Shown: in pieces, positions 20,537 through 35,033 of the stretch
How the letters are laid out: each line of letters opens with the position of its first letter
How positions within the stretch are numbered: the stretch's first letter is position 1
Virus record (IMG/VR): IMGVR_UViG_3300049491_000634
Span: 1-37,339 of that record
Direction: 5' to 3' (one strand)
Length of the DNA stretch: 37,339 nt
Origin: a virus
Position numbers and translations under genes: made by a program
Notes under the pieces: generated by a model
The model's database searches: none
The model's input: the letters and a program-made list of their open reading frames with translations, nothing else
What the model was told of the DNA's origin: nothing

Positions 20537-20613
20537 CGTGGGGTGGAGCAGTCCGGTAGCTCATCAGGCTCATAACCTGAAGGTCACAGGTTCAAATCCT
20601 GTCCCCGCAACCA
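20537..20613 (+). tRNA. Initiator tRNA-fMet (CAU), complete with CCA; probable attachment site
   Basis: The 77 bases fold into a full cloverleaf: acceptor CGTGGGG / CCCCGCA (C1-A72 mismatch of initiators, U3-G70 wobble), D-stem GAGC/GCTC, anticodon stem TCAGG/CCTGA with the initiator's GC pairs and loop CTCATAA, T-stem ACAGG/CCTGT, then A73 and encoded CCA. The unpaired first base and the anticodon arm mark it as initiator type. Initiator tRNA genes are common phage integration sites, and the integrase remnant lies 0.5 kb away, so this is probably attP. It is longer than the usual 3'-half carried in attP and may also be functional. Confidence 0.85.
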
Positions 20614-22974: not shown

Positions 22975-23183
22975 CACTTGCCCTCCATGTGCTTTTTCAA
23001 GCGCGGGTAGTGGTCGATCCAGGCGCGAAGCGACCGCCACACATCGGGTTCCATCGCGATGCGGTGATCGCCCTCTGGGCGTGGCGTGCGGAGCCAGATT
23101 TGCCAGCCGTCGAACGACACATAAAGCCCATCGCCGATAAATTCCTCGACGCATTCGACAGGCGTGTCAGGTTTCTCGCTCAC
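22974..23183 (-). CDS. Small early protein, unknown function
   Basis: A 69-residue acidic protein with a beta-hairpin-like segment (GDGLYVSFDGWQIWLRTPR) and a C-terminal helix with many aromatic residues (WRSLRAWIDHYPRLKKH). It follows RecT with a four-base overlap. A distant match to the 22703-22885 product suggests a duplicated family. Function unknown. Confidence 0.58.
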   Translation of the reverse strand: MSEKPDTPVECVEEFIGDGLYVSFDGWQIWLRTPRPEGDHRIAMEPDVWRSLRAWIDHYPRLKKHMEGK

Positions 23184-24067
23184 GCCGTCACCGGGGACCG
23201 GAATGGATCGGTCTCGGGGTCGGCGAAAACGCCGTCGTTCGGCGCGCTGGTCTCGTCAGCGGAGGTGCGCGCGATGGCGCCTTGCAAGATATGGTCGAGG
23301 CGGTCGCGCGCGTTGTCGCGCAGACGATCTTGCGCTTTCTGGACTTCGTCCTCGGCCAGGATTTCATCCACCGCCTCGCTTGTGGTGGCGTATGACAGCC
23401 GCGTTTCCAGCGCGTCGAGCCACTGGGTAATTGACTGCCTGGGCTTTTGCCTCGGCGGCTCAACCGCCGGTTCTGACACGGGCGCGGCGACGGGTGCCGG
23501 GTCCGCATCCAGCGTCGTGCCGCGGAACGTGTCGCGGGCGGTCTGGGCGTCGAACTCTTCCGGCGAGTAAACGCCCAGCATAACCTCCGGCGCGTGCCGG
23601 CGTGCCCAAACGCGAGTTCCGGCATAGCAAAGCTGCTGCTCGGGTTGCTTGATCCACATGCCGTTCGTGGTTTTCGCTTCCTTCAGCCAGAGGGTTATTT
23701 CTCTCGGCTTTGATTCGCCCTTGATGGTGCCCCGCACCGTAACCTTCAGATCGGGACCCGCGCCGGAGTATTCGTATTCCAACCGGGCGGCCATGATCCC
23801 GCTGCCGTTGAGCGCGGCGGCGACAATTTTGCCCTCAAAATTTAGCTTGCCGTTGATGACCGAAGTGCAGGCGGCGACGGCGAACGGTGACATTCCCCAC
23901 CGCATCGCCTGCTCCACGATGAGCAGACAGTCGCCGGGATTTTTCCGCAGATGCTCCGGAATGCCGATCTTCCCAAGCGACATCATCTCGGCGAGCCGGA
24001 TGGCGCTCTCCATGTTCGTCGGCATCAGCACGTTGGCGCTTCCGCTGGTGGGGACAATCGCGTTCAT
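23180..24067 (-). CDS. recT: RecT-family single-strand annealing protein
   Basis: The 295-residue protein matches the RecT family. It has an N-terminal segment MESAIRLAEMMSLG, then IPEHLRKNPGDCLLIVEQA and MRWGMSPFAVAACTSVINGK. Next comes KIVAAALNGSG, and then the middle domain with LEYEYSG and the QLCYAGTRVWARRHAPEV motif. RecT anneals complementary strands during phage recombination. The last 100 residues are a Pro/Ala/acidic disordered tail. The partner next upstream is Gp157, coupled by TAATG. No RecE-like exonuclease is beside it; the VRR-NUC nuclease at 28565 is on the other operon. Confidence 0.85.
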   Translation of the reverse strand: MNAIVPTSGSANVLMPTNMESAIRLAEMMSLGKIGIPEHLRKNPGDCLLIVEQAMRWGMSPFAVAACTSVINGKLNFEGKIVAAALNGSGIMAARLEYEYSGAGPDLKVTVRGTIKGESKPREITLWLKEAKTTNGMWIKQPEQQLCYAGTRVWARRHAPEVMLGVYSPEEFDAQTARDTFRGTTLDADPAPVAAPVSEPAVEPPRQKPRQSITQWLDALETRLSYATTSEAVDEILAEDEVQKAQDRLRDNARDRLDHILQGAIARTSADETSAPNDGVFADPETDPFRSPVTA

Positions 24068-24588
24068 TATTTGGTCCTCAGTGATAGCGTCGGGAGAGAA
24101 TTTGAGAGCGTGGCACCAGGGACCTCGCCGCCGCTCTTCAATACTGACGCGATGGTTTGCTTATCTATCTTCCGCACCAACTCAACATAGAGGTCGGGGA
24201 TTTCGTCTTCGTTGACGATTTGCACTGACGGTTGCCCGGCGCGAATGGAGGCGGTCAGGTCCGGCATCTCGAACCGATTCCTCCCGAGCGCGTCTAAAAT
24301 CGCGAAAGCCGTGCCCCGGAACGCTTCGTTGCGGCGCTGGTAACGCTCCTTCCGCGCCCGCATGTCCTCGATCAGTCCGGCACTGGCATCCGCCATGGCC
24401 TTGGCGTCGCGGGCAGCTCGCAGGAGCCGCGCGAGCACGCTTTCAATGTCGCCCTCGGCCGCGCCGAGTAATTCATCAAGCGCCGCCTCGTTTTGTTCGA
24501 GACCGCTGTCGTCGGCCAACAGCCGCGCGCGGGCCGAAGCCCACGCCGCCATTGCTTGTTCCACGCGCCATGCGCTTGGGGCATCCAT
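24067..24588 (-). CDS. Gp157-like recombination-associated protein
   Basis: The 173-residue product starts at the ATG at 24588. A long charged helix (residues 40-95, with MRARKERYQRRNEAFRGTA) is followed by FEMPDLTASIRAGQPSVQIV, DEIPDLYVE and KIDKQTIASVLKSGGEVPGA. This is the characteristic C-terminal pattern of the siphovirus Gp157 family, usually found next to recT/erf or single-strand-binding genes. The exact function is unknown. An in-frame extension to 25020 crosses two genes and was rejected. Confidence 0.82.
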   Translation of the reverse strand: MDAPSAWRVEQAMAAWASARARLLADDSGLEQNEAALDELLGAAEGDIESVLARLLRAARDAKAMADASAGLIEDMRARKERYQRRNEAFRGTAFAILDALGRNRFEMPDLTASIRAGQPSVQIVNEDEIPDLYVELVRKIDKQTIASVLKSGGEVPGATLSNSLPTLSLRTK

Positions 24589-24764
24589 TATGCCGCCCTC
24601 CGCTCGAGCGGCCCGACCTCGACATCCGCCAGCGCCGCGCGCAGCAGCGTGTCGCGGATCGCCCGGATGCTCTTCGCGTGCGTGTTGGGCAGCTCGCGAT
24701 ACGTCTCGGCGAGATCCAGTTCGAGCAGGATGAGGCGAATGTCGGATGCGGTTAATTTGTTCAT
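24588..24764 (-). CDS. Small early protein, unknown function
   Basis: A 58-residue helical protein (LTASDIRLILLELDLAETY) whose ATG at 24764 overlaps the stop of the upstream zinc protein; its own stop overlaps the start of Gp157. Conserved coupling supports it as real. Function unknown. Confidence 0.6.
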   Translation of the reverse strand: MNKLTASDIRLILLELDLAETYRELPNTHAKSIRAIRDTLLRAALADVEVGPLERRAA

Positions 24765-25087
24765 AGCAGCGCGTCCGCTTTCTGCTCGGCCGCATGAACG
24801 GCGCACCACGCCGCACCATCGACCCACTCCGTCGCGTCGGCGCGGCACTTCCAGCCGTTGCACTCGAGCGTGACCTCGCCAGTGCCCGCGCACGTCTCGC
24901 ACTGCTGAGTGCGCACCCAGGGGTCGTTGCAATGCCCGAGGCAGATGCGGCCGGCGCCGGAACAGTCGTGGCATTCAGAGAGGAGGGGCGGCCGCGCAGC
25001 GGGGATTGCCGCGACGGCAACGTCTCGTAATGTTACGGGCTCGGATGTGGTCGAACGACAGGGAGCAAGAGAAGAATGACGGGACAC
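24761..25087 (-). CDS. DnaJ-type zinc-finger-like protein, first gene of the leftward operon
   Basis: The 108-residue product carries DnaJ-like C-x2-C-x-G-x-G units (CHDCSGAG and CETCAGTGEV), plus CLGHC and CNGWKC, giving two zinc sites. The GTG start at 25087 is supported by GGAG eight bases upstream on the same strand. It is the first gene after the leftward operator-promoter region. It may act as an RNA- or protein-binding adaptor; no J-domain is present. Confidence 0.65.
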   Translation of the reverse strand: MSRHSSLAPCRSTTSEPVTLRDVAVAAIPAARPPLLSECHDCSGAGRICLGHCNDPWVRTQQCETCAGTGEVTLECNGWKCRADATEWVDGAAWCAVHAAEQKADALL

Positions 25088-32337: not shown

Positions 32338-32562
32338 TTGTTATTTATATGGGGACTGGAATTTATCGAGGTGCATGGCCCAGACGGGCAACGTGCGTTC
32401 CTTAATCCCAAAGCGATCAGTAGTTTGCGCGAGCCGGTCGGCACTGACCTGAAACATTTCACCGGCAGTGTCCGTTGTGTGGTGGTTACGACGAACGGGA
32501 AGTTCATCGCGGTTGTAGAGACCTGTCCGGGTATCCGTGACACGCTGGATAAAAAGCCGTGA
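32338..32562 (+). CDS. Small protein next to terL; start uncertain
   Basis: The 3' part encodes a compact protein: EFIEVHGPDGQRAFLNPKAI, then SSLREPVG, CVVVTTNGKFIAVVETC and GIRDTL. It looks like a small beta-rich fold of a type found in phages. No ATG is well placed. TTG at 32338 (74 residues), CTG at 32356 and GTG at 32371 are candidates; an ATG at 32226 would give a longer form reading through the repeat region. The stop overlaps the GTG start of terL. Function unknown. Confidence 0.5.
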   Translation: MLFIWGLEFIEVHGPDGQRAFLNPKAISSLREPVGTDLKHFTGSVRCVVVTTNGKFIAVVETCPGIRDTLDKKP

Positions 32563-35033
32563 GCGAGACCAACCCGTTCCACGCGGCGATCGAAAAGTAT
32601 GCCCGCGCGCCGATCGCGTTCGTGCGGGATATTCTGGGCCAGGAACCTGATGCGTGGCAACTGGAGGCACTGCGCGCGGTGGCGCGCGGGCATACCCGTC
32701 TTGCTATAAGGAGTGGTCATGGGGTAGGAAAGCTTATGACACTTTCCGATCGGGTCCCTACCCCTGATGGTGAGCGTCGCTGGGGCTCCCTCCTGCCGGG
32801 CGACCGCCTTTTTGGCCGTGACGGTGAAGCGGTACACATTGTTTCCCGCCATGATCAAGGCGTCCAACCAATATTCCGGGTGACATTCGACGATGGCACG
32901 TCGCTTCGCGTGGGCGCTGATCACCTGTGGACGGTAAGAGGCCGTGCGCAGCGGCGTTCCGACCGCCCCGGCGGCCCCTCTGGTGAGTATGTGACGCTGA
33001 CCACGGCTGAAATCGTGGCGCGCGGAGTGAAGCGCCCGAACGGTGTGTCCATGGCGCGTCAGTGGGAGCTACCGTCGCATGGTGCGGCTCAGTATCCCCC
33101 GAAAGACGTTCCCCTGGCGCCTTACCTGTTCGGCGCGTATATCGCTGATGGGTCGTTCGGGTCTGGTATCGTCCTGAGCGGGAGCGAAGCGAAAGCGGAT
33201 TTGTGGGAGGAACACGCGGCGGCGGCCGGCCTGAGTGTCGCGCGCCATGCCGACAGTCGGGACGGGGATCGGGTTTCCTTACGGATTCACGGCGTAAGAC
33301 CTTTGTTCGCGGCATTGGGGCTGCGCGGTGTGACCGCCGCTGATAAATTCATCCCTCTCTGTTACATGGAGAATACGCCAGCCGTCAGGCTTCTTGTGCT
33401 GCAAGGGCTCATGGATGGTGATGGCTACGCGATGCCTGAAGGGCAGGCGGTTTATACGTCTGTTTCTAAAACTCTCGCCGATAACGTGGCGTGGCTCGTG
33501 CGTTCTCTCGGTGGCAAGGCGTTTGTGTCTGGCCCTCAGTCGTCGCATTACATGAAAGACGGCTGTCGGGTTCGCGCCCAGGATCATTACGATGTAACGG
33601 CTCGTCTTCCCGGCGGAATGGCGCTTTTCACGCTGCCGTATAAAGCGGCGCGGATGAAGCCTGTGTCTCAGGAGCGTTATCTTGTTCGTTGGATCGACAG
33701 CATCGAGCCTGATGGCGAAGAGGCGGCGATGTGCGTCAAGGTTGACGCACCCGACGGGCTTTACCTCGCCAACAACTTCATCGTCACGCACAATACCTGC
33801 TTCGCCGCGTGGCTGTGCGTATGGTTCATCTGCACCCGCGCGCCGTTCAAGGTCGCCATAACCGCGCCGTCCTCCTCTCAGTTGTTCGACGCGCTGTGGC
33901 CCGAGTTCATCAAATGGCTGAACATTCTGCCTTCCGGCTGGCGCGATCTGTGGGATATTCGCTCCGATCGCGTTACGCTTAAAGCCGATCAGGAATGTTT
34001 CGTCACCGCGAGAACGTCACGGCCCGATACGCCGGAAGCGATGGCCGGCCTGCACTCAGCGCATATTCTTCTCATCGCCGACGAGGCCTCTGGCATTCCC
34101 GAATCGGTCTTCGAGGCCGCGTCCGGCTCCATGTCGTCGCATGGCGCGATAACCCTTCTGATCGGTAACGCGACACGTAGCACCGGCTTCTTCTACCGCG
34201 CCCATATGATGGAGCGGGATCGTTGGTATACCCAGAAGGTCTCCTCGGCCTCTTCCAAACGGGTCACCTCGGAGTTCGTCGATGAGATCGCCAACAGATA
34301 CGGCATGGATTCAAATGCCTTTCGCGTCCGTGTTCTCGGAGAGTTCCCTCTTGCTGATGATAACACCCTCATTGGCGCCGACATCGTCGACAGCGCCATG
34401 CTCCGGGATATCGAGATCGATCCTCTCGCCATCGAGATCTGGGGCGTCGACGTCGCCCGATTCGGCGCCGACGCTTCTGTACTGGTGAAACGAAAGGGGC
34501 GCGTCGTGACTGAAATGCCGCGCGCCTGGCATGGCCTGGATACCATGCAACTGGCCGGCGCCATCAAGGCGGAGTGGGATATCCAGTCCCCCCTCTCCCG
34601 TCCTTCCCTCATCTGCATCGACGTGATCGGTATCGGCAGCGGCGTCGTCGATCGTCTGCACGAGCAGAATCTGCCCATTCTGGGCGTCAATGTCTCCGAA
34701 ACCGCCTCAACCACCGGTAGATACGCACGCCTACGAGACGAGTTATGGGTGCGCTGTAAGGAGTGGCTTGGCAACCGCAACGTGCGTTTGCCGCGCCATG
34801 ATCGCCTCCGCGACGACCTCCTCATGCCCCGGTATTCCTTCCTGAGCGACGGCAGGCTCCAGGTCGAGAGCAAGCAGAGTATGCGCTCTCGTGGCCTCCC
34901 CAGCTGCGATCACGCCGATGCGCTGAACCTTACTTTCTGCGAGCAGGGGCTGGGCGTCGGCTCCGGCATGACCTCCGGCCTGTTCGACAAAGCCCCCATG
35001 CACATGAGCCTCGCCGATGGAGATCTCGTATGA
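32559..35033 (+). CDS. terL: Large terminase subunit interrupted by an in-frame intein
   Basis: The 824-residue precursor is a phage TerL plus a 354-residue intein. The ATPase Walker A (RSGHGVGK-T) is split between K58 and T413. Walker B is ILLIADEAS (D508, E509). The nuclease has WGVDVARFGAD (D631), CIDVIGIGSG (D688) and CDHADALNL (D784, D787). After splicing the enzyme would be 470 residues, a normal TerL size. It would package DNA into the prohead with the DUF5681 partner and portal. GTG start at 32559 overlaps the previous stop. Without splicing Walker A is broken, so packaging depends on the intein. Confidence 0.9.
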   Translation: MSETNPFHAAIEKYARAPIAFVRDILGQEPDAWQLEALRAVARGHTRLAIRSGHGVGKLMTLSDRVPTPDGERRWGSLLPGDRLFGRDGEAVHIVSRHDQGVQPIFRVTFDDGTSLRVGADHLWTVRGRAQRRSDRPGGPSGEYVTLTTAEIVARGVKRPNGVSMARQWELPSHGAAQYPPKDVPLAPYLFGAYIADGSFGSGIVLSGSEAKADLWEEHAAAAGLSVARHADSRDGDRVSLRIHGVRPLFAALGLRGVTAADKFIPLCYMENTPAVRLLVLQGLMDGDGYAMPEGQAVYTSVSKTLADNVAWLVRSLGGKAFVSGPQSSHYMKDGCRVRAQDHYDVTARLPGGMALFTLPYKAARMKPVSQERYLVRWIDSIEPDGEEAAMCVKVDAPDGLYLANNFIVTHNTCFAAWLCVWFICTRAPFKVAITAPSSSQLFDALWPEFIKWLNILPSGWRDLWDIRSDRVTLKADQECFVTARTSRPDTPEAMAGLHSAHILLIADEASGIPESVFEAASGSMSSHGAITLLIGNATRSTGFFYRAHMMERDRWYTQKVSSASSKRVTSEFVDEIANRYGMDSNAFRVRVLGEFPLADDNTLIGADIVDSAMLRDIEIDPLAIEIWGVDVARFGADASVLVKRKGRVVTEMPRAWHGLDTMQLAGAIKAEWDIQSPLSRPSLICIDVIGIGSGVVDRLHEQNLPILGVNVSETASTTGRYARLRDELWVRCKEWLGNRNVRLPRHDRLRDDLLMPRYSFLSDGRLQVESKQSMRSRGLPSCDHADALNLTFCEQGLGVGSGMTSGLFDKAPMHMSLADGDLV
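32733..33794 (+). mobile_element. Class 3-type intein with LAGLIDADG endonuclease in TerL
   Basis: The 354-residue insert begins with Leu rather than Cys/Ser, so it lacks the usual first nucleophile. It has the class 3 W-C-T set: W in GADHLW (intein residue 66), C in AAMCVKVD (334, block F), and Thr at +1 after the terminal H-N. Blocks A/B are SDRVPTPDG and FRVTFDDGTSLRVGADHLW. Blocks F/G are VDAPDGLYLANNF and IVTHN. A dodecapeptide homing endonuclease sits between: LFGAYIADG (132-140) and LQGLMDGDG (223-231), with both acidic residues. It looks intact for both splicing and homing. Confidence 0.88.

Follow-up and report, generated by a model that had tools for sequence, protein, structure and literature searches.

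What is the long in-frame insert that splits the Walker A motif of the large terminase (TerL) gene in the IMG/VR virus record IMGVR_UViG_3300049491_000634, and how did it come to be there? The sequence examined was the whole record of 37,339 bases, referred to here as the window. We consider it very likely that the insert is an intact, mobile class 3 intein, which would remove itself from the TerL precursor by splicing and would home through a LAGLIDADG endonuclease with one-sided co-conversion of the 5' extein. This reading draws on the anatomy of the sequence, the fold of a structure model, alleles that lack the insert, a one-sided footprint and a natural recombinant involving a sister allele, from which we infer splicing, cleavage and nuclease-driven homing as the source of the recombinant.

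The insert in TerL and its intein class

The gene and the parts of the insert are located as follows:

32559-35033 (+): intein-interrupted TerL precursor gene, an open frame of 824 residues with a GTG start and a phrog_2 match on the C-extein
32559-32732 (+): N-extein of 58 residues ending in the Walker A sequence SGHGVGK, compared with 54 intein-less loci in which SGHGVGK/T or a variant is joined
32700-32732 (+): synonymous footprint in the last 11 N-extein codons, a probable co-conversion tract, marked by its differences from 14 close empty alleles, its near-identical sequence (32 of 33 nucleotides) in both further intein-bearing alleles of this TerL clade and its GC content at third codon positions (GC3)
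32733-33794 (+): predicted class 3 intein of 354 residues with a LAGLIDADG homing endonuclease domain, recognized by its Trp-Cys-Thr (WCT) residues, structure model, class 3 DnaB matches and empty-site alleles
32922-32930 (+): block B His64-Leu65-Trp66 (B:10 His and B:12 Trp of WCT, in GADHLW), with H64 and W66 invariant in an alignment of the window intein with 17 viral-contig homologues (18 sequences)
33126-33152 (+): first LAGLIDADG motif, LFGAYIADG, residues 132-140, acidic residue D139; D139 and G140 invariant
33399-33425 (+): second LAGLIDADG motif, LQGLMDGDG, residues 223-231, acidic residue D230; D228, D230 and G231 invariant; Pfam LAGLIDADG_3 below cut-off (E = 0.001)
33732-33734 (+): block F Cys334 (F:4, presumed first nucleophile, in AMCVKVD), invariant in the same 18 sequences
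33786-33797 (+): block G Thr352-His353-Asn354 and the +1 Thr; T352, H353 and N354 invariant in the same 18 sequences
33795-35030 (+): C-extein of 412 residues in an open frame, whose first residue is the Walker A Thr (+1 nucleophile); TerL relatives 64-99% identical

The insert comprises 354 in-frame codons without a stop and splits SGHGVGK/T between K58 (codon 32730-32732) and T413 (codon starting at 33795), exactly the coordinates and length given in the original prediction. Since the open reading frame encodes 824 residues, the predicted spliced product has 470, in agreement with the size expected there. The C-extein matches the large terminase family phrog_2 of PHROGs (E = 2.4e-30), and the extein retains both the Walker A motif and homology to TerL proteins, with relatives reaching 99% identity. 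The next gene downstream encodes a portal protein (phrog_1216), for which no DNA relatives were found among GenBank phages.

Class 3 inteins lack a nucleophile at position A1 and carry Trp at B:12, Cys at F:4 and Thr at G:5 (PMC5050341). In the window, residue 1 is Leu, neither Cys nor Ser, at a boundary set by empty alleles with GVGK/T joined. The features proposed earlier (the Leu, the block B Trp, the block F Cys, the terminal His-Asn and a Thr at +1) were all found, as Leu1, Trp66, Cys334, His353-Asn354 and T413. The W-C-T motif is likewise complete, but its class-defining Thr is Thr352 (G:5) and not the +1 Thr to which it had been assigned (PMC5050341). In the alignment with class 3 inteins that had been suggested as a check, the catalytic residues align and are invariant, and a junction placing Cys, Ser or Ala at residue 1 was not found, the boundaries being fixed by 54 empty loci. 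Residues H64, W66, D139, D230, C334, T352, H353 and N354 are kept in 17 of the 17 aligned homologues, and the class 3 residues are present in all 11 intein loci that were aligned first, the window included. A Leu start is not odd, because class 3 homologues in other phages also have Ala, Leu, Met or another non-nucleophile directly after GK. The best PDB sequence matches are the class 3 DnaB inteins 6bs8 (E = 9e-9) and 6rix (E = 1e-8), and assignment to class 1 or class 2 is ruled out by Leu1, Cys F:4, Trp B:12 and Thr G:5. Judged by these residues, the TerL insert is a class 3 intein, with splicing predicted. None of the Pfam and NCBIfam models reaches its cut-off for this intein, so profile annotation would miss it.

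The AlphaFold2 (AF2) model of the intein has a mean predicted local distance difference test score (pLDDT) of 91 and a predicted template modelling score (pTM) of 0.91. Its splicing domain superimposes on the class 3 intein 6bs8 with 1.4 Å over 123 of 125 residues (Z 19.6), and the whole length on PI-SceI with 3.6 Å over 333 aligned residues (Z 26.9). According to the model, a Hint splicing fold is present and the nuclease part is a PI-SceI-like LAGLIDADG endonuclease, predicted to cleave DNA, with both acidic residues kept; the two acidic motifs noted earlier correspond to D139 and D230. Conserved residues, predicted fold and empty alleles thus all bear out the original prediction of an intact class 3 intein at the Walker A site.

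Full and empty alleles and the recombinant L027

A scan of viral contigs with the C-extein yielded 60 TerL loci (64-99% identical), 56 of which include the insertion site. Intein-less alleles in related phages had been named as something to look for, and 54 of these 56 loci have the joined, empty K/T site. The two others, L027 and L074, carry inteins of 354 residues that are 64% identical to the window intein. A scan with the L027 intein added four TerL loci that carry an intein (L126-L129). Identity to the window is 59-65% for these inteins and 62-72% for the TerL C-exteins; by sequence these loci belong to other TerL lineages. Two of them, L126 and L127, were recovered from a single metagenome (IMG/VR 3300021082); their TerL inteins are 66% identical and the TerLs around them 63%, which means that this sample harbours several circulating intein alleles.

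In a tree of C-extein DNA, intein-bearing alleles are scattered among empty ones: the window lies near the empty L016, L027 is identical to the empty L025, and L074 stands apart. The TerL C-exteins of the window and L027 are 95% identical. Their synonymous divergence (dS) is 0.49 in the C-extein versus 1.46 in the intein, hence intein and host gene have had different histories. On these values the window and L027 inteins must be either separate arrivals or the product of replacement.

The comparison of L027 (full) with L025 (empty) revealed no differences in the 1033 nucleotides downstream of the site or at 131-407 nucleotides upstream, and 23 differences that all lie 7-130 nucleotides upstream. 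L074 differs from L027 at 6 of 1062 intein nucleotides and matches it over 182 nucleotides upstream, not farther, with differences downstream of the site from nucleotide 24 on. L027 follows L074 at 23 of the 23 upstream sites out to 130 nucleotides, and L025 at every other informative site listed. The chance that 23 differences spread randomly over the 1440 nucleotides compared all fall in the first 130 is ~1e-24. This division of the informative sites is strong sequence evidence that L027 is an L025-like phage to which an L074-like phage would have given the intein with 131-182 nucleotides of 5' extein and at most 23 nucleotides of 3' extein. Such a pattern is expected if a break at the insertion site had been repaired, and the break in the ancestor of L027 was presumably made by the nuclease of the intein.

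Alternatively, a class 3 intein may have been passively inherited and moved, with the L027 recombinant and the footprint arising from ordinary phage recombination or chimeric assembly. The metagenomic origin of the contigs favours this explanation, as does the presence in the window phage of a RecT-like annealing protein and a Gam-like protein, with which recombination is expected without a nuclease. However, the inteins are scattered among empty alleles and the nuclease domain keeps its invariant acidic residues, and we regard this explanation as unlikely.

The footprint upstream of the intein

The last 11 N-extein codons of the window read CTT GCT ATA AGG AGT GGT CAT GGG GTA GGA AAG, compared with, for example, CTG GCC ATT CGC TCG GGG CAT GGC GTC GGC AAG in a close empty allele. 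Each of the 14 close empty alleles differs from the window at 10-13 of these 33 nucleotides, always synonymously, and ten positions differ from all 14; the first 33 nucleotides downstream of the insertion site have 0 to 2 differences. The footprint is present at 32 of 33 nucleotides in both L027 and L074. Its exact 23-mer was found in two known intein-bearing contigs and in no other viral contig, and a donor phage was not found, a degenerate search adding only L123, a distant and empty TerL. GC3 is 0.27 in the footprint versus ~0.76 in the extein, a value of 0.27 or less occurring in only 0.2% of 11-codon stretches of the exteins of this gene, and six empty alleles have 0.64-0.91 in the same stretch. 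The Ser codon has changed from TCN to AGY, which in the genetic code takes more than a single synonymous step. This change makes import from a more distant terL the most likely origin of the footprint, in preference to point mutation.

Low GC3 was also observed in the first 12 intein codons of L126, L128, L094, L088, L007 and others, far below the rest (0.33 versus 0.75 in L128). Just upstream of the footprint, the N-extein contains a perfect 15-nucleotide inverted repeat (32597-32611 and 32681-32695; GTATGCCCGCGCGCC / GGCGCGCGGGCATAC), which is probably not part of the intein because the sequence of its second arm also occurs in many empty alleles.

The divergence between the window and L027 begins at the first intein codons, just past the shared footprint. 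Rather than a passive relic, the footprint might be a functional companion of the intein, for example as an internal start (TAAGGAG at 32707; GTAGGAAAGCTTATG before Met2) making the nuclease apart from TerL or through altered nuclease recognition. Several observations favour such a role. Alleles with inteins only 64% identical share 32 of 33 nucleotides; had the footprint diverged like the same-residue codons of the intein, at least 10 of 11 identical codons would be expected with P ~0.01, which is suggestive rather than proof because other short stretches within the intein are about as similar between alleles. The window, L127 and L128, from different TerL lineages, have GTAGGAAAG in common before an ATG at intein codon 2, and low GC3 is found in the intein-bearing alleles of the subfamily, not in the empty ones. 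However, the signal is not conserved (L027 has GGC for GGA, in L126 the ATG is missing, and the signal does not occur in other class 3 inteins), splicing by itself already frees the nuclease, and TAAGGAG is not enriched in the window. A functional footprint is accordingly improbable, more so than ordinary recombination, and co-conversion from a common donor pool is the simplest reading.

Two related candidates were also rejected: a scan of 28 loci did not show an internal ribosome start to be generally present in class 3 inteins, and a repeated phage promoter in the footprint (GCTATAAGGAG) showed neither a motif excess in the window nor a sigma-70-like site there. Separately, in the inteins of L086 and L083 the block A region, which follows the P-loop Lys, is unusually long and divergent, and L086 has AAGGAG six bases ahead of an in-frame ATG at codon 26.

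Proposed mechanism and related inteins

For a mobile class 3 intein in TerL, the steps would be as follows. Cys334 in block F, helped by His64 and Thr352, would attack the K58-Leu1 junction, the N-extein would move to the +1 Thr, and Asn354 would then cyclize, releasing a 470-residue TerL with a restored GVGKT loop. Splicing through Cys334 is the best-supported route, judging from the anatomy of the insert and from published class 3 inteins. Most likely, the LAGLIDADG nuclease of the freed intein would then cut the joined Walker A site of an intein-less terL during co-infection, and repair from the occupied copy would bring in the intein and a stretch of 5' extein with little or no 3' extein. 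Packaging would require splicing, because the insert interrupts Walker A. The intein probably still homes, because its nuclease domain is intact and a natural recombinant involves a sister intein allele.

Several points weigh against this scheme. The main caveat is that the contigs are metagenomic and L027 might be an assembly chimera. In addition, this clean recombinant carries a sister intein rather than that of the window, and IMG/VR holds no empty allele isogenic with the window by a window-specific 25-mer, the closest C-extein DNA being ~93% identical. The window and L027 inteins (dS 1.46) are too different for one recent invasion, yet their footprints are nearly the same, and simple co-conversion does not fully account for this sharing. 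Finally, the B-block Asp of the DnaB class 3 inteins (DxxH; PMC6195587) is Gly61 here, at a position that varies among homologues. That Gly61 marks a decayed intein, which cleaves or stalls instead of splicing in a defective phage record, is very improbable, as every catalytic position is kept in an open frame, the nonsynonymous divergence (dN) from the L027 intein is 0.32 against a dS of 1.46, and the TerL C-extein is intact and up to 99% identical to those of intein-less phages.

Matches to the intein occur in 755 of 50,697 phage records (E ≤ 1e-3), in TerL, helicases and other genes, with identities up to ~36%. Together with the PDB matches and the residues kept in all 17 aligned homologues, this number puts the observation well outside chance. 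In the Salmonella phages 66FD, 65FD and PAT1 (MT580117 and relatives), TerL is interrupted by such an intein; close reading of the 66FD one placed it in class 3 and at the insertion site seen in the window. These inteins share with that of the window the gene, the Walker A site, WCT and a LAGLIDADG domain, but have ~36% identity, Ala at residue 1 and Ser at +1. No bacterial (prophage) relatives of the intein or TerL were confirmed in two scans of genome contigs. The PI-SceI (VMA) intein has the same Hint and LAGLIDADG architecture in another host gene, with 17% identity, and splices by the class 1 mechanism.

The intein itself is of a known kind. Published examples include TerL inteins inserted between the Lys and Thr of the P-loop (TerL1-a), class 3 inteins at other TerL sites and active phage TerL inteins (PMC5050341), as well as a DnaB P-loop occupied by a class 3 intein (PMC6195587); the recent spread of an intein from phage to phage has been described before, in actinophages (PMC9957025). 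Among the mycobacteriophage inteins TerL1-a to -e (Kelley 2016, PMC5050341), all with the same host protein, TerL1-a occupies the same K/T site, TerL1-c and -e are class 3, and some cut intein-less partners; the named class 3 ones differ from the window intein in their TerL sites and are distant in sequence. The Mycobacterium DnaB inteins MsmDnaBi1 (6bs8) and MchDnaB1 (6rix) resemble it in WCT and splicing-domain fold (1.4 Å, 123 residues), and MsmDnaBi1 is likewise class 3 and in a P-loop, but they are mini-inteins without a nuclease, in a helicase, with ~32% splicing-domain identity. What is new here are the empty alleles, the footprint and the recombinant around the intein.

Elsewhere in the window, an HNH endonuclease gene (1576-2280, +; phrog_826, E = 1e-64) directly follows the major head protein gene and may add a second mobile endonuclease to the structural module. 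The adjoining genes for the RecT-like annealing protein and the Mu Gam-like protein (23180-25020, -) form a phage recombination module, a potential source of the repair functions that homing needs. There is a single tRNA-Met gene (anticodon CAT; 20537-20613, +).

The window adds one more class 3 TerL intein, from a little-studied phage lineage. With full and empty natural alleles of one gene, both switch points of the transfer are mapped, within ~50 and 23 bases, revealing the direction and size of co-conversion in nature, and the same alleles supply ready target sequences for a cleavage test. Why two inteins so unlike each other share a footprint is a small puzzle; if the footprint is functional, inteins differing in a third of their residues would keep the same extein DNA alongside. 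The genetic trail offers a clear example of an intein spreading and taking along a short piece of DNA from its previous host.
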